DNA of 64,000 nt from Enteractinococcus helveticum. GTDB taxonomy: Bacteria; Actinomycetota; Actinomycetes; Actinomycetales; Micrococcaceae. The position numbers were made by a program, and so were the translations under genes. The DNA lies in contig NZ_LXEY01000015.1 in the NCBI RefSeq assembly GCF_001657475.1, positions 1 to 64,000 on the forward strand, read 5' to 3'. The first letter of the stretch is position 1. Each line of letters begins with the position of its first letter. Of the stretch, positions 11,059 to 18,141 are shown piece by piece. Under the pieces are notes generated by a model. It did not search any database and was not told where the DNA came from. It saw only the letters and a program-made list of their open reading frames with translations.

Positions 11059-11275
11059 CACCGCAGGGCACACAAGCACTCTCCACCGCCCACGCTCCAT
11101 TGTCGTGGGCGGCTGAATTTTTATTTAAACCGCAACGCGTTGCACGAGAACTTTTTGTGCTGATTTTTGCATGTCGAAAACATGAACTTTCTGCCAAGAA
11201 TCGATGTCTGATCCAGCAAATGGCCGCGTCAAACCTAGGGAGCGCGGGGGCACAAAAAATCTTTTCACAAAACTC

Positions 11276-11340
11276 TTGCATATTGCTTAGACAGCAACTA
11301 GATTGTTGTATCAGCAACACACCCCGTGATGCGAATCACA
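11276..11340 (+). promoter_or_regulatory. Composite promoter/operator of the carbamoylsarcosine amidase gene
   Basis: TTGCAT (11276) and TAGATT (11299) are spaced by 17 bases. The spacer is filled by the inverted repeat TTGCT-TAGAC-AGCAA (11283-11297). Twenty-one bases after the -10 stands GTGA-N6-TCAC (11326-11339), which fits the CRP/GlxR consensus. The same three elements in the same order precede the hydantoinase gene at 12534. An AAAGGAG ribosome site follows at 11352-11358. Confidence 0.65.
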
Positions 11341-11364
11341 GAATGAACTTTAAAGGAGAATCCC

Positions 11365-12144
11365 ATGGTGGATAGCGTTTACGAATCGGACGAAGCCTAC
11401 AAAGAAATCGAAAACCAGCTAGAACAAGCACTGGACAACGCCTTCAACCTGGGCGCCCAGGAGATGGAAGGCCGTGGCTTCAAGCGTCGCGTTGGCTTCG
11501 GCACTCGCCCAGCGGTCATCCACATTGACATGGCTAACGCCTGGACCCGCCCAGGTCACGCATTCACTTGCCGCAACATGGATACCATTATTCCTGCTTG
11601 CCAGGACCTGAACGCTGCCGCTCGCGCCAAGGGTGTCCCAGTCATTTTCATCACCACCGCCTACGAAGTTCTCAACGCAGAACTGCCATCAGACATGGGC
11701 CTGTGGTCGCAGAAGATTCCTCTGGAAACCCTGGATCCTTCGACCGGTGCAGCTGACATCGACTCGCGCATCGCCCCAGAACCAGGCGAATTGGTCATCA
11801 CCAAGAAGCGCGCCTCAGCGTTCCCTGGCACCTACCTGAACCAGTTCCTGACCGCTAACCGCATCGACACCCTGATCGTCACCGGCGTGACCGCATCCGC
11901 CTGCGTTCGCAACACCGTCGAAGATGCCATGGCTGAAGGCTTCCGTCCAATTGCTGTCCGCGAAGCCATCGGTGACCGCGTTGCCGGCACCGTCGCCTGG
12001 AACCTGTTCGACATCGACAACAAGTTCGGTGACGTCGAATCCGTTGGCACCGTTGTGGAATATCTCAACAACCTGCCGAACTTCGAAGACACCGTTCCCA
12101 CCCCAACCGCCAAAGCCCCACAGCAGGCCCTGGCAGCCAAGTAA
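11365..12144 (+). CDS. N-carbamoylsarcosine amidohydrolase
   Basis: A 259-residue isochorismatase-fold cysteine hydrolase that cleaves N-carbamoylsarcosine to sarcosine, CO2 and ammonia, the step after N-methylhydantoin opening in the creatinine deiminase route. It follows the Arthrobacter enzyme closely over its whole length: GFKRRVGFGTRPAVIHIDMA, SDMGLWSQKIP, KKRASAFPGT and a C-terminal WNLFDIDNKFGDVES. The catalytic triad is Asp55, Lys147 and Cys180 (VTGVTASACVRNTVEDA). The ATG at 11365 follows AAAGGAG. A terminator and a separate promoter come before the next gene, so the two are co-regulated rather than co-transcribed. Confidence 0.88.
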   Translation: MVDSVYESDEAYKEIENQLEQALDNAFNLGAQEMEGRGFKRRVGFGTRPAVIHIDMANAWTRPGHAFTCRNMDTIIPACQDLNAAARAKGVPVIFITTAYEVLNAELPSDMGLWSQKIPLETLDPSTGAADIDSRIAPEPGELVITKKRASAFPGTYLNQFLTANRIDTLIVTGVTASACVRNTVEDAMAEGFRPIAVREAIGDRVAGTVAWNLFDIDNKFGDVESVGTVVEYLNNLPNFEDTVPTPTAKAPQQALAAK

Positions 12145-12160
12145 GCATTAGCACCATACT

Positions 12161-12201
12161 CTCCGGGACTTCACACTCTGACTGAGCGTGAAGTCCCGGA
12201 G
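12161..12201 (+). terminator. Terminator after the amidase gene
   Basis: Perfect 14-bp arms CTCCGGGACTTCAC and GTGAAGTCCCGGAG around a 13-base loop, 16 bases after the stop. Confidence 0.75.
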
Positions 12202-12533
12202 GCGCTTAACAGGGACCCGCTGCGACCAGCACCCTCTCACGCGAGGCTATAACGCCAGATCACCGCGCCACAGGTGCATTGCCAGGCACAGGGCCATCTT
12301 TTAGTCACTCTTCAAGTCCCTCGAATTTGACGACCAGCCGCTCGGCTCAACCTTCACAATGCGTCACCCCTGAGCGGGCACGCCTATCCCCCGAAGAGCC
12401 TGAGCAGTGACTGATCGACAAACCCAACGAGCATCTACAGGACTTTGCTGCACCCCTTTTTCAGGCCCACCCGGCAAGAGGCCCTGAGTCCTGAAAGAGT
12501 GACAAATTTCTATAAATTTCTCACCAACCCCTC
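12202..12533. other. Gene-free spacer before the hydantoinase promoter
   Basis: About 330 bases with no supported gene. Only short, unconvincing minus-strand frames are present. A partial inverted repeat CAGGCCCACC...GAGGCCCTG sits near 12463-12487; otherwise nothing was seen. Confidence 0.5.
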
Positions 12534-12596
12534 TTGATAATTGCTTAGTTAGCAACTAAATTGACTGAGTAGCAACAAAAGGTGATGTGAGTCACA
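12534..12596 (+). promoter_or_regulatory. Composite promoter/operator of the hydantoinase gene
   Basis: TTGATA (12534) and TAAATT (12557) are spaced by 17 bases, with the spacer holding TTGCT-TAGTT-AGCAA (12541-12555). GTGA-N6-TCAC follows at 12582-12595, 19 bases after the -10. This duplicates the geometry upstream of the amidase gene. The transcript would have a leader of about 165 bases before the AGGAGGA ribosome site at 12722. Confidence 0.65.
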
Positions 12597-12732
12597 CGCC
12601 CGCCAAGTAGGTTCGAGCATCGCTCCTAACAGAAAAACTCCCAGCGGTTTTCGGGTTTTGGATCTCCCGTCCGCCTCCCTATTTCCAAGTTCGCGATACA
12701 ACTTCCATGCCATTTCCATATAGGAGGAACAC

Positions 12733-15700
12733 ATGAAGCGCATAGGTGTAGACGTTGGTGGCACTTTCACCGACTTATATTACTCAGATGATGAATCACG
12801 CACTGGGTTTGTCGAGAAAGTCCCCTCAACTCCAGAAGATCCGTCGATCGCCGTTGTTGATGGTCTGAAGCGCTTGGTGGCGAAAGCCGGCATCACGCTT
12901 GCCGAAGTCGACCAGGTTGTCCACGGCACCACGGTCGCCACGAACACCGCGCTGACCCACAAGGGTGCAGAAGTCGGCATGATCACCACCGAAGGCTTCC
13001 GCGATATTTTGCATATTGCTCGCCACAAGAAGCCGCACAACTTCTCGCTGCAACAAGACCTCCCATGGCAGACCCACCCGCTGGTCAAACGCCGCCACCG
13101 ACTGACCGTCAACGAACGCATCACCGCACCATACGGTGACGTGCTGCGCGCTCTGGACGAAGACGAAGTTCGCGAACGTGTCCGCGAACTGAAAGCCGCC
13201 GGTGTTGAAGCCATCGCCGTCTGCCTGCTGCACTCCTATTTGAATCCAGCCCACGAACAGCGCATCGGCGAAATCGTTCGCGAAGAATTCCCAGAAGCTT
13301 ACTTGTCGCTTTCCAGCGACATTGTTCCGCTGTACCGCGAATACGAACGCTTCTCGACCACCGCTCTGAACGCCTATGTTGGCCCACGCGTCTCCCGCTA
13401 CCTGACTCGTCTGCAAAATGAAATCGAGTCCCTGGGGTATGAACGTGAAATCCTGCTGATGCAGTCCTCCGGTGGCATGGTCCCAATTAACGAAGCCGCC
13501 AAACGCCCAGTGACCCTGATGATGTCGGGTCCTGTTGGCGGGCTGATCGGTGGCCTGTGGGCCGGTGAACAGTCCGGTTTCGAAAACATTGTCACCCTGG
13601 ATATCGGTGGCACCTCCGCCGACATCGGTGTCGCCTACCAGGGTGAACTGCGCATGCGCCACCTACTGGATACCAAGATTGGTGACTACCAGGCCATGAT
13701 CCCCATGGTCGACATTGACACCATTGGCGCCGGGGGCGGCTCGATCGCCTACGTGGACCAGGGTGGCGTGTACCGCGTTGGACCCCAGTCGGCTGGTGCT
13801 GACCCAGGTCCGGTTTGCTACAACCGTGGCGGTGAAGAACCAACCTCCACCGACGCCCAGTTGCTGCTGGGCCGTCTGCGCCCAGAGCGCATGCTGGCCG
13901 GTTCCGGTATCGACCTGCGCCCAGACCTGTCACAGGATGCCATGAAGAAAGTGGCAGACCAGCTGGACATGTCAGTTGAAGAAGCCGCTCTTGGTGCCCT
14001 ACAGCTGCAGAAATACGGCATGACCCAGGCGATCGAAGAAAACTCGGTCCGCCGCGGGTACGACCCTCGTGACTTCACCCTGGTTGCTGCAGGTGGTGCC
14101 GGTGGTCTGTTCGCTTGCGAAATTGCCTCCGAACTCGAAGTTCCAAACGTGCTGGTCCCGGCAAACCCGGGCATTATCGCTGCCCTGGGGCTACTGGCCA
14201 CCGATGAGCGCTACGAATTCGTCTCGACCGTCCGCTTCCCACTGGCTGACGCTGATTGCCCAGCTCTGCAGTCTTCCTACGAAGAACTCGAAGCTCAGGC
14301 TACTGCGCAGTTGGATGCCGAGAGCATCGCCCCAGAACACCGCAAGCTGCAACGTTTGGCCGATGCCCGTTACGAAGGTCAGGGTTATGAGATTCGCTTC
14401 GATGTCCCCGATGGTGAGATCAACGATGCCTGGTTGGTCGAAGCCGAAACTCGCTTCCATGCGGCTCACGAAGAAGAATATGGCCACCGCTTCTCGCACA
14501 GCGCCGTTGAACTGATCAATATCCGTGTCGAAGCAACCGCCGAAATGACCGAGCTGCCTGCGGTAAAGCCAACCACACAAGCCTCGCTAGAAGATGCCCT
14601 TATCGAAACCCGTGAGGTCACTTTCGACGTGGGCGGCAAGCCAGCAACCCTGGCCACCCCGTTCTACGATCGCGAAAAACTGGCCATCGGTCAAAGCTTC
14701 GAAGGCCCAGCCATCGTCGAACAGTACGACGCCACTACCGTGGTCCCTCCGGGCTTCGGTGTCACGATCGACGAGTCCGGCAACATGGTGATTGCTTGCC
14801 CAGCCAATGAATCCACCGCAGAAGACCTGGCAACCCCAATTCTGATGCGAGTCATCGGTGGTGCGCTGAACTCGGCCGCCAAGGAAATGGCCTCCGTGCT
14901 ATTCCGTATGGCATATTCCTCGATCATTCGTGAATCCGAGGACCTCGGCGCCGGGCTATTTGATGTCGAGGGCAACGTGTTAGCCGAATCGGACTCGACC
15001 CCGATGTTCATGGGCTCCATGCCCAAGATTGTCAAGGGTGTCATCTCGGTGCTGGGTGACGATATCCACGAAGGCGATATCATTCTGCACAATGACCCAT
15101 ACCTAGGTGCGACCCACTCCCCTGACGTGGCGATCATCAAACCGATCTTCTATCAAGGCAGCCTGGTTGGCTTCTCGGGTGCTTCGGGTCAGCTGATCGA
15201 CAACGGTGGCGCACATTCGGGGCTGATGGTGGATATTCAGGACATGCAGTCGGAAGGCCAGATCTTCCGCGCACTGAAGATCTACGACAAGGGCGTTCGC
15301 CAAGAACCGCTGATCAAACACATTTTGGATAACACGCGCACACCAACCTCCAATAAGGGTGACTTCCAGGCCATGATCGCAGCGACCGAGTTGGCGTCCA
15401 ACCGCTACCTGTCGCTGGTGGAACGCTATGGCTTAGCAGCTGTACAGGATTCCGGCCAGGCCTGGATCGATTACTCCGAGACCATGCTGCGCCAGGAAAT
15501 CGCCAAGATCCCAGATGGTGTGTACGAAACTGAAATCGGCTACCTCGATGATGATGGTCGCAACTACGGTAAGAAACTGCCGATCGCCGTCAAGGTCATT
15601 ATCGAAGGTGACGAGATCACCTACGACCTGACCGGCTCGTCCGAACAGGTGCCAACCGCATATAACTGTGCATTTGAAGGAACCACCGTCTCAGCGTTTA

Positions 15701-16614
15701 CCTTCATTACCCGCATGATGTTCTTAGACGAAGTGGCCTTCCCGGTCCACGTTCCGCAGAACGAGGGCATGCTGAAACCACTGAAGGTGATTGCACCGGA
15801 GGGTACGATCTTCAATCCGAAGTACCCGGCGGCAACCTTCTCCCGGTTCTCGCAGGTCCAGCGTGCGGTTGACCTGGCACTGCGTGCCCTGGCTCCGGTC
15901 ATGCCAGAAAAGGTCACCGCCGGAAACTCCGCCCATATTCACTTCATGTCGTATTCCGGGTGGGATGAAGTCCAAGGCGAATACTGGGTCTACCTGGAGG
16001 TCAACGAAGGTGCCAACGGTGCCCGCCATAACGGCGATGGTCCGGACTCGGTGGACAACCTGATTGCTAACACCCGCAACAACCCGATTGAAGAGCTCGA
16101 GTGGCGCTTCCCAATGCGCACCGACCGCTACGAGCTGCGTGACGAACCTGCAGCAGCCGGTGAGTACCGCGGGGGTATCGGGATCGTTCGCGAAAACACG
16201 TTCCTGACCGACACGGTCATCACGTGTGAAGGTGAACGCCACGAATCGGATCTGCCATGGGGTGCCCACGGTGGCCACGATGGCCGGAACGCCTCGCTGA
16301 TCAAAAACCCAGGCCGCGACGGCGAAGAATCCTGGCCGTCGAAGGTCACCGGGCGCCAGCTTGAAGCCGGCGACTCGATCCAGATCACGGTCCCATCCGC
16401 AGGTGGCTTCGGGGACCCAACCAAGCGCGATCCAGCCAAGGTATTAGAAGATGTGCTGGATGACTTCACCACCCGTGAGGCCGCGCGTGAAGATTACGGT
16501 GTCGTCCTGGTCGAAGTCGATGGTCGCCTGACCGTAGACGAAGACGCCACCGTTGCCCTGCGCGCCGAAACGGCCCAGTCGGCGGGAAAAGCAACCGCAG
16601 CGGCGACCGCGTAA
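12733..16614 (+). CDS. Fused HyuA-HyuB ATP-dependent hydantoinase (probable N-methylhydantoinase)
   Basis: A 1293-residue hydantoinase/oxoprolinase protein in which the two usual subunits are one chain. The HyuA half (about 1-690) starts with RIGVDVGGTFTDLYY, the sugar-kinase-like phosphate loop, and has VVHGTTVATNTAL, MSGPVGG and LDIGGTSADIGV. The HyuB half (about 700-1293) has LNSAAKEMASVLFRMAYSSI, ESEDLGAGLFD, HNDPYLGATHSPDVAI and a C-terminal AGGFGDPTKRDP. Such enzymes hydrolyse 5-oxoproline or (N-methyl)hydantoin with ATP. The neighbouring N-carbamoylsarcosine amidase with the same operator makes N-methylhydantoin the likely substrate; 5-oxoprolinase is the alternative, since eukaryotic 5-oxoprolinases have this same fused length. 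Confidence 0.85.
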   Translation: MKRIGVDVGGTFTDLYYSDDESRTGFVEKVPSTPEDPSIAVVDGLKRLVAKAGITLAEVDQVVHGTTVATNTALTHKGAEVGMITTEGFRDILHIARHKKPHNFSLQQDLPWQTHPLVKRRHRLTVNERITAPYGDVLRALDEDEVRERVRELKAAGVEAIAVCLLHSYLNPAHEQRIGEIVREEFPEAYLSLSSDIVPLYREYERFSTTALNAYVGPRVSRYLTRLQNEIESLGYEREILLMQSSGGMVPINEAAKRPVTLMMSGPVGGLIGGLWAGEQSGFENIVTLDIGGTSADIGVAYQGELRMRHLLDTKIGDYQAMIPMVDIDTIGAGGGSIAYVDQGGVYRVGPQSAGADPGPVCYNRGGEEPTSTDAQLLLGRLRPERMLAGSGIDLRPDLSQDAMKKVADQLDMSVEEAALGALQLQKYGMTQAIEENSVRRGYDPRDFTLVAAGGAGGLFACEIASELEVPNVLVPANPGIIAALGLLATDERYEFVSTVRFPLADADCPALQSSYEELEAQATAQLDAESIAPEHRKLQRLADARYEGQGYEIRFDVPDGEINDAWLVEAETRFHAAHEEEYGHRFSHSAVELINIRVEATAEMTELPAVKPTTQASLEDALIETREVTFDVGGKPATLATPFYDREKLAIGQSFEGPAIVEQYDATTVVPPGFGVTIDESGNMVIACPANESTAEDLATPILMRVIGGALNSAAKEMASVLFRMAYSSIIRESEDLGAGLFDVEGNVLAESDSTPMFMGSMPKIVKGVISVLGDDIHEGDIILHNDPYLGATHSPDVAIIKPIFYQGSLVGFSGASGQLIDNGGAHSGLMVDIQDMQSEGQIFRALKIYDKGVRQEPLIKHILDNTRTPTSNKGDFQAMIAATELASNRYLSLVERYGLAAVQDSGQAWIDYSETMLRQEIAKIPDGVYETEIGYLDDDGRNYGKKLPIAVKVIIEGDEITYDLTGSSEQVPTAYNCAFEGTTVSAFTFITRMMFLDEVAFPVHVPQNEGMLKPLKVIAPEGTIFNPKYPAATFSRFSQVQRAVDLALRALAPVMPEKVTAGNSAHIHFMSYSGWDEVQGEYWVYLEVNEGANGARHNGDGPDSVDNLIANTRNNPIEELEWRFPMRTDRYELRDEPAAAGEYRGGIGIVRENTFLTDTVITCEGERHESDLPWGAHGGHDGRNASLIKNPGRDGEESWPSKVTGRQLEAGDSIQITVPSAGGFGDPTKRDPAKVLEDVLDDFTTREAAREDYGVVLVEVDGRLTVDEDATVALRAETAQSAGKATAAATA

Positions 16615-16791: not shown

Positions 16792-18141
16792 ATGCAAGAT
16801 AACGCCCACGCATTCCGTAAGATTAGCCTGAAGGAAACGCGATTCGTCACGATCATCGCCTTCCTCGCCTGGACCATCGCGGTCTACGATTACATTCTGT
16901 TTGGCACCCTGCTCCCCCGTATTGAAGAAAGCTTCGGCTGGGACTCCAGCCACGCCCTGTTGGTCTCCACTCTGGTATCTGCCGGAGTCTTCTTGATCAT
17001 CATTTTCTTTGGCCCACTGATCGATAAACTGGGACGTCGTAAAGGCATGATGACGTCGGTCGGTGGCTCCGCCGTCGCCGGTGGTGCCAGCGCGCTGGCC
17101 CAAGGCTCCGTCAGCCTGGTGGGCATCCGCGCACTGTCCGGGGTGGCCCTTGCCGAACAATCGGTCAACGCCACATATCTCAATGAAGTCTTCGCGCTGT
17201 CCGAGGATAAGAAGGTCAAAAAGAACCAGGGACTCATCTACGCGTTCGTCCAGACCGGATGGCCCGTGGGTGCGCTCATGGCAGCAGGCTTCGTCGGCCT
17301 GGTGACCGCCTGGTTTGGTCCAGAAAACTGGCGGCTAGCCTTCTTGATCTCGATGATCCCGGCCGCCGTCGTCTTCGCGCTGATCTACTTCTTCCTCAAA
17401 GAAACCCCGCAGTTTAGCGCCATGCAGCAGATGAAGGCCCACCAGAAGGCCGGGAACCTGGAAGCAGCCCAGGCGATCTCGGATGCCACCGGGCTGAAGA
17501 TCACCACCGAGGCTCCGCTGAAGATGATCTTCAATAAGCTCCACCGCCGCAACACTATCGTGCTGTGCTTTGCCTGGATCCTCAACTGGATGGGCATTCA
17601 GACCTTCTCCGTGCTGGGTACCACCGTATTGGAAACCGGTAAAGGCGTTGATGCCTCGAGTGCTTTGATGATGATTATCGTGGCCAACATCGTCGGCGCT
17701 CTGGGTTATCTGACCCACGGCTGGCTGGGTGACCGCTTCGGCCGTAAGAACGTGATTGTGTTCGGTTGGACCATCGCCGGTATCGCGTTTACCGCCATGA
17801 TGTTGGGCCCAAGCAATGCAGCATTCGTTGTGCCGATGTACATGATCGGGCTGTTCTTCCTGCTGGGCCCATACGCGGCCATCATGTACTTCCAGGCCGA
17901 ATGCTTCCAGTCTGAATGCCGTGGTACCGGATCCGCATTTATCGTGTCGATGAGCCAGCCGGGTGCTGTGATCGGTGGGTTCATTCTCACCGCACTGGTC
18001 ACCGCGAACTTTGGTCTCAGCAACGCCACGATCGTGATTGCGCTGGGTGGCGTACTGCTGTCCGGTCTGATCATGATGCTGGCACGTCCGGTCAAGCAGG
18101 AGGTGACCGAAGAAGAACCAGTTTCTGTAACTGTGTCATAA
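16792..18141 (+). CDS. MFS metabolite:proton symporter
   Basis: A 449-residue, 12-helix major facilitator. The loop 2-3 signature is seen as GPLIDKLGRRKGM and its second-half counterpart as GWLGDRFGRKNV. An extended central loop (KETPQFSAMQQMKAHQKAGN) and the AWTIAVYDYILFGTLLPRI first helix place it among metabolite:H+ / sugar-acid symporters. The ribosome site AAGGAG is six bases before the ATG. Being next to the amidase and hydantoinase, it may import N-methylhydantoin, creatinine or a related compound, but it lacks the shared operator and the substrate is inferred only from position. Confidence 0.75.
   Translation: MQDNAHAFRKISLKETRFVTIIAFLAWTIAVYDYILFGTLLPRIEESFGWDSSHALLVSTLVSAGVFLIIIFFGPLIDKLGRRKGMMTSVGGSAVAGGASALAQGSVSLVGIRALSGVALAEQSVNATYLNEVFALSEDKKVKKNQGLIYAFVQTGWPVGALMAAGFVGLVTAWFGPENWRLAFLISMIPAAVVFALIYFFLKETPQFSAMQQMKAHQKAGNLEAAQAISDATGLKITTEAPLKMIFNKLHRRNTIVLCFAWILNWMGIQTFSVLGTTVLETGKGVDASSALMMIIVANIVGALGYLTHGWLGDRFGRKNVIVFGWTIAGIAFTAMMLGPSNAAFVVPMYMIGLFFLLGPYAAIMYFQAECFQSECRGTGSAFIVSMSQPGAVIGGFILTALVTANFGLSNATIVIALGGVLLSGLIMMLARPVKQEVTEEEPVSVTVS

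Follow-up and report, generated by a model that had tools for sequence, protein, structure and literature searches.

A predicted tandem operator and a candidate IclR-family repressor for the N-methylhydantoin genes of a Micrococcaceae genome

I propose that the genes for N-carbamoylsarcosine amidase and ATP-dependent N-methylhydantoinase in this Micrococcaceae genome (G000, 3.67 Mb) are governed by a pair of palindromes in tandem, that the pair serves as operator for a repressor of the IclR family, whose gene lies on another contig at C22:145103-145855, and that a CRP/GlxR-like site downstream of the pair likely serves as a second brake. Resting as it does on sequence comparison, this view has in my estimate about three chances in four of being right. 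The regulon would be small: the amidase gene, the hydantoinase gene (probably with the MFS transporter gene behind it), and a second MFS gene beside the iclR gene. The evidence comes from a 64-kb stretch of the genome, called the window here, from the rest of the genome, and from its relatives.

The conversion of N-methylhydantoin to sarcosine is an established pathway, and enzymes of the creatinine pathway are used in creatinine assays. In the window, the amidase gene (11365..12144, + strand) matches structure 1NBA over residues 7-254 with 321.5 bits, and the hydantoinase gene (12733..16614, +), encoding a single chain of 1293 residues, matches structure 7HK5 over residues 1-1281 with 2395.3 bits. 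Both are nearly full-length matches to structures bearing those names; a search of NCBIfam gave no model above its cut-off for either protein. Together the two enzymes likely turn N-methylhydantoin, a product of creatinine breakdown, into sarcosine. The MFS transporter gene that follows (16792..18141, +), whose highest-scoring NCBIfam model is that of an MFS subfamily, at a score under the cut-off, probably belongs to the hydantoinase transcription unit, the same order being found in relatives L005, L006, and L008. A close relative of the genome is Enteractinococcus coprophilus (L005), with an amidase 100% identical over residues 1-258 and a hydantoinase 97% identical.

The first-pass annotation had noticed that both genes are preceded by an element of three parts, a -35/-10 pair, a palindrome in the spacer, and GTGA-N6-TCAC, and each part is indeed where it was placed. 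Before the amidase gene, on the + strand, lie a predicted -35 box TTGCAT (11276..11281), whose TTG stands in a register also seen in the operators of relatives, and, after a 17-bp spacer, a predicted -10 box TAGATT (11299..11304). Palindrome 1, TTGCT-N5-AGCAA (11283..11297), is conserved in relatives and fills the spacer. Palindrome 2, TTGTTGTATCAGCAA (11303..11317), begins 20 bp after palindrome 1, and the exact GTGA-N6-TCAC site, GTGATGCGAATCAC, occupies 11326..11339. The hydantoinase promoter repeats the arrangement on the same strand: predicted -35 box TTGATA (12534..12539), palindrome 1, again TTGCT-N5-AGCAA (12541..12555), predicted -10 box TAAATT (12557..12562, 17-bp spacer), palindrome 2, TTGACTGAGTAGCAA (12561..12575), at the same 20-bp offset, and the exact GTGA-N6-TCAC site GTGATGTGAGTCAC (12582..12595). 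At both promoters palindrome 2, which the first-pass annotation had overlooked, is the weaker of the two and overlaps the end of the -10 box and the likely start of transcription. A consensus promoter scan picked out the hydantoinase boxes only, and one such match is at the level of shuffled sequence (mean 0.7).

The copies are similar and lie only 1.26 kb apart, as they would if they were a local duplication with no regulatory meaning. I find this hardly credible, since the element is better kept than its surroundings and returns, its register unchanged, at the same genes across several genera. Compared with E. coprophilus, 60/68 columns of the amidase element are kept, against 123/231 before it and 13/24 after it; for the hydantoinase element the figures are 54/66, against 180/394 before and 97/140 after. 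Conservation of the element and its 20-bp register in relatives thus count together against a functionless duplication. The hydantoinase leader itself (12605-12735), with 97/140 columns kept in E. coprophilus, contains a frame of nine codons whose TGA overlaps the ATG of the hydantoinase gene, which may be chance. A search of Rfam with positions 11060-12760 at E <=0.1 gave no match.

How specific is the motif? Exact TTGCT-N5-AGCAA occurs 2 times in the 64 kb, where 0.07 are expected, and none of 100 shuffles reached 2. Across the genome, however, the exact single palindrome has 4 matches and the reversed control also has 4, and a tighter single-palindrome pattern with 1 mismatch allowed shows no excess over control in 59 genomes. 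The single palindrome by itself is unspecific and was rejected as the regulatory signal. The tandem pair is another matter. In the window it is found just at the two promoters (0.05 matches expected), and in the 3.67-Mb genome, searched on both strands at <=2 mismatches, it is found at 3 places, against 0 for the reversed control. All three lie at genes of the proposed set, the third (G000:C22:147576-147610) upstream of the second MFS gene, with TTGCAA and TAAATT boxes of its own and, as far downstream as in the window promoters, GTGA-N6-TCAC with one mismatch; none lies at an unrelated gene. By itself GTGA-N6-TCAC is close to chance level: the window has 3, where 1.35 are expected. The earlier idea of a repressor sitting on the spacer palindrome holds as to position, over the predicted promoter, but the likely site is a tandem pair rather than one palindrome.

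It was also remarked early on that no repressor gene adjoins the two enzyme genes, and this is true of the present genome. The candidate lies elsewhere: the best match to the regulator, C22:145103-145855, is convergent with the second MFS gene, the one that bears the third operator. Its product has the HTH_IclR (PF09339, 60.5 bits) and IclR_C (PF01614, 75.5 bits) domains, both above cut-off. In most related loci the linkage is with the amidase itself. An amidase-based scan yielded 40 loci from named organisms, and in the flanks fetched with them 34/40 contain a gene of the IclR family that shares 47% identity or more with the copy of the present genome (tblastn); L039 and L040 share one such gene, and the loci without it are L005, L006, L008, L018, L042, and L044. 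Gene calls in some of the high-GC loci were made by codon usage. A tree groups the C22:145103 protein with those whose genes are linked to the amidase gene (a clade of 45 rows, support 99/94), next to Yaniella. In relatives L118 and L124 the tandem pair is also found upstream of iclR itself. Loci L020, L023, L024, L025, L027, L030-L033, L013, and L021 have a pair of adjacent IclR paralogues close to the amidase gene; the G203 and G413 copies contain one in-frame TGA.

The same association appears when whole genomes are counted. Amidase (E <=1e-60) and regulator (E <=3e-80) are present in the same 37 of 395 genomes of the family, the regulator cut having been chosen after the list was inspected. 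The operator (<=2 mismatches) is found in 35/37 of these genomes and in 4/358 others (Fisher p 3e-43, a figure that ignores relatedness, related genomes not being independent), and the control pattern in 4/395. With the regulator cut set beforehand, 1e-70, the regulator is found in 51 genomes, of which 35 have the operator, as do 4/344 of the others. The two genomes with amidase and regulator that lack the operator at this threshold (G063 and G164) have pairs with 3-4 mismatches. As for the extra operator genomes, the site in G007, a genome 71% complete, is similar to the one at the MFS gene; the matches in G224, G263, and G292 look like chance. Co-occurrence and linkage would be expected, too, of an iclR gene that acted on the pathway by way of a different site.

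Might some other regulator bind the palindromes, such as the paralogue at C22:115844, or one of a different family with its gene elsewhere? In favour of this, no regulator gene stands beside either enzyme gene, and IclR-type matches number 17 in this genome. The paralogue, however, which is the second-best match to the regulator, belongs to a separate clade and lies within a sarcosine-oxidase-like/glyA/creatinase cluster of its own that has no operator. The operator is found in 0/14 of the genomes that have only weaker regulator matches (1e-71 to 2e-77), and no other regulator family appears in more than 3 of 41 clustered stretches (ORFs of at least 90 residues remaining after overlap filtering). 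I regard a different regulator as improbable. It is less so, though still unlikely, that the IclR-family protein binds the tandem sites as an activator, or as a switch between activator and repressor. Relatives of the PcaU/PobR type activate or switch roles, and the best NCBIfam match of the C22:145103 protein is the PcaR/PcaU/PobR subfamily, at 99.5 bits and below the cut-off of 284.75. A protein bound to palindromes within the -35/-10 spacer and over the end of the -10 box would, on the other hand, be expected to block polymerase.

Among the 40 amidase loci are some from Enteractinococcus, Yaniella, Arthrobacter, Sinomonas, Citricoccus, Brevibacterium, and Leekyejoonella. The 40 include pairs from the same genome (e.g., L006/L012, L008/L011, L014/L042, and L016/L027), and L039 and L040 overlap. 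The tandem pair (<=3 mismatches) is found at 37/40, the exceptions being L018, L042, and L044. When every palindrome is allowed <=2 mismatches and pairs 8-40 bp apart are counted in these loci, 53/56 are offset by exactly 20 bp. For a wider view of the promoter, operators were aligned with one row per gene orientation, so that an operator between divergent genes may count once for each, and 132 rows of 252 were left once near-copies had been removed. Many of the short loci were retrieved by the motif itself, so the conservation of the palindromes among these rows is not independent evidence, but neither the CRP-like site nor the TA of the -10 box played a part in their selection. TTG stands seven bases before palindrome 1, in the register of a -35 box, in 48/132 rows, far above other offsets. 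In the 48 promoters chosen by this TTG, TA and the final T are found at the -10 position in 48/48, and TANNTT in 41/48, its last two T shared with palindrome 2.

Many of the other amidase loci have a second layout, in which the operator pair follows another conserved box and stops close to the start codon. Here a box resembling CTCTGGTGCTGG is followed by GTGCGCTA(C/T)AG, directly before the operator pair (L013, L029, L032, L034-L040, L092, L100, L119, and L125). The box is possibly the site of another regulator or of a sigma factor, and repression would fit both promoter layouts. The gap between the two enzyme genes is about 60-70 bases in Yaniella L006 and L008, where one composite promoter lies before the amidase gene and none was found before the hydantoinase gene. 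In this genome and in E. coprophilus the gap is about 550-590 bases, and in it lie a second composite promoter and a conserved hairpin. The hairpin (12160..12202, +; z -4.7), a possible terminator lacking a T-run, has an outer stem of 15 pairs, and in E. coprophilus one C-G pair has become U-A with the stem retained. It is absent from the list given by a terminator scan of the window. The early proposal of a dispersed regulon with a terminator between the two genes thus stands as regards dispersal and as regards a strong intergenic hairpin, but the hairpin has neither a T-run nor a call from the scan.

The third part of the element, GTGA-N6-TCAC with <=1 mismatch, is present in 34/48 of the promoters with the -35 register (16 exact), 37-44 bases from the start of palindrome 1, compared with an average of 0.3/48 and a maximum of 4/48 in 200 shuffles. 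It is found in 17/18 hydantoinase promoters, 12/23 amidase promoters, and 5/7 promoters of the second MFS gene; 11 of the 14/48 promoters without it precede amidase genes. In agreement with the initial assignment to the CRP/GlxR type, both window promoters (2/2) have the exact site and the genome encodes a Crp/Fnr relative, C22:21320, which matches PF13545 with 65.4 bits and actinobacterial Crp/Fnr structures with 249-261 bits. The assignment is nonetheless weaker than that of the pair to an IclR-family protein because the full 16-mer TGTGA-N6-TCACA, found at neither window promoter, is not enriched genome-wide (3 against 2 for the control). This lack of excess, and the fact that T precedes GTGA in only 10/34 sites, are what would be expected if the site belonged to another dimeric regulator. 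I consider that a serious alternative, though an unlikely one: the inner bases are mostly GTGAT-N4-ATCACA, a known form of the CRP site, and the recognition helix of the C22:21320 protein is RETVNK. A protein of the CRP/GlxR type is the likelier occupant of the third site.

How far does the regulon extend? The first-pass annotation expected a genome scan to turn up creatinine deiminase, sarcosine oxidase, and a regulator gene. The scan did yield the third copy, at the MFS gene beside the regulator gene, but none at the sarcosine-oxidase/creatinase genes. Their cluster (L077, G000:C22:106500-126000), which comprises creatinase, MFS, GntR, glyA, and sarcosine-oxidase-like genes along with the paralogous IclR gene, has no operator at <=4 mismatches on either strand, and sarcosine oxidase is not supported as one of the expected targets; the cluster is likely a sister regulon with another operator. 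The creatininase gene (L131) has no operator at <=6 mismatches on the one strand scanned. No creatinine deiminase was identified among the three of seven PF07969 matches inspected (two on C18 in L136 and one in L137): the C18 protein looks like a dihydroorotase, its gene adjoining that for aspartate carbamoyltransferase, and the L137 protein appears to be some amidohydrolase. At two loci (L120:9480-9800 and L126:8973-9293) the operator is separated from the second MFS gene by an amidase-like fragment of 106 residues, which could be the remnant of a lost amidase gene.

The mechanism I envision is as follows. Two dimers of the IclR-family protein, forming a tetramer, would bind the pair on one face of the DNA and exclude RNA polymerase, because the pair covers the spacer, the end of the -10 box, and the likely start. 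An effector, perhaps N-methylhydantoin or N-carbamoylsarcosine, would release the repressor, and this would switch on jointly the separate transcription units of the amidase, of the hydantoinase with its MFS transporter, and of the second MFS transporter. The CRP-like site begins about 14-16 bases past the predicted starts (near 11311 and 12569); since it lies downstream of them, a protein bound there would be a roadblock to elongation rather than an activator. If this is true, expression would need both the inducer and a permissive carbon signal, and enzymes and transporters would be united by a single regulator wherever they are located in the genome. More broadly, and with appreciable doubt, I suggest that in Micrococcaceae and some neighbours the N-methylhydantoin branch may be under a double lock of this kind, a dedicated IclR tetramer and CRP/GlxR, and not under the central nitrogen regulator of Corynebacterium.

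CRP/GlxR commands a global regulon in actinobacteria. The present system resembles it in having a GTGA-N6-TCAC site and a close Crp/Fnr relative encoded in the genome, and differs in that the site lies downstream of the predicted start and accompanies an IclR-type pair.

Tandem palindromes 18-22 nt apart are bound by IclR-family factors of 94 orthologous groups, a spacing that fits a tetramer with its dimers on the same face of the double helix (Suvorova and Gelfand 2021, PMC8222616). The operator described here conforms to the regulons of that study in its spacing of 20 nt, its catabolic targets, and its linked IclR-family gene. It departs from them in its half-site, TTGCT, which compared by eye is two bases off the published TTYCRY and agrees with neither the group 1 nor the group 2 consensus, and neither hydantoin nor creatinine is a word found in the main text of that paper. 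The pathway and IclR tandem operators are thus already known; as for the regulon, the half-site, and the regulator gene, searches of an open-access library listed no paper whose title or opening lines of abstract describe an IclR-type regulator of these genes.

A different solution is described for Corynebacterium glutamicum ATCC 14067, where cshA and hyuB are single-gene units under AmtR, a nitrogen regulator of the TetR family with the site CTAT-N6-ATAG (PMC8864220). That site has 0 exact matches in the window, on which ground AmtR control was rejected here, and 11 with one mismatch, where 8.07 are expected; the sole one-mismatch site near the two genes (12710-12723) lies just before the hydantoinase start codon. 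The two systems are alike in having counterpart enzyme genes, each with its own operator, and unlike in that a tandem IclR-type pair here takes the place of CTAT-N6-ATAG. For the N-methylhydantoin pathway there is now a candidate regulator that can be named, along with an exactly defined operator and a regulon open to test, and in two actinobacterial lineages counterpart enzymes would be under regulators of different families.
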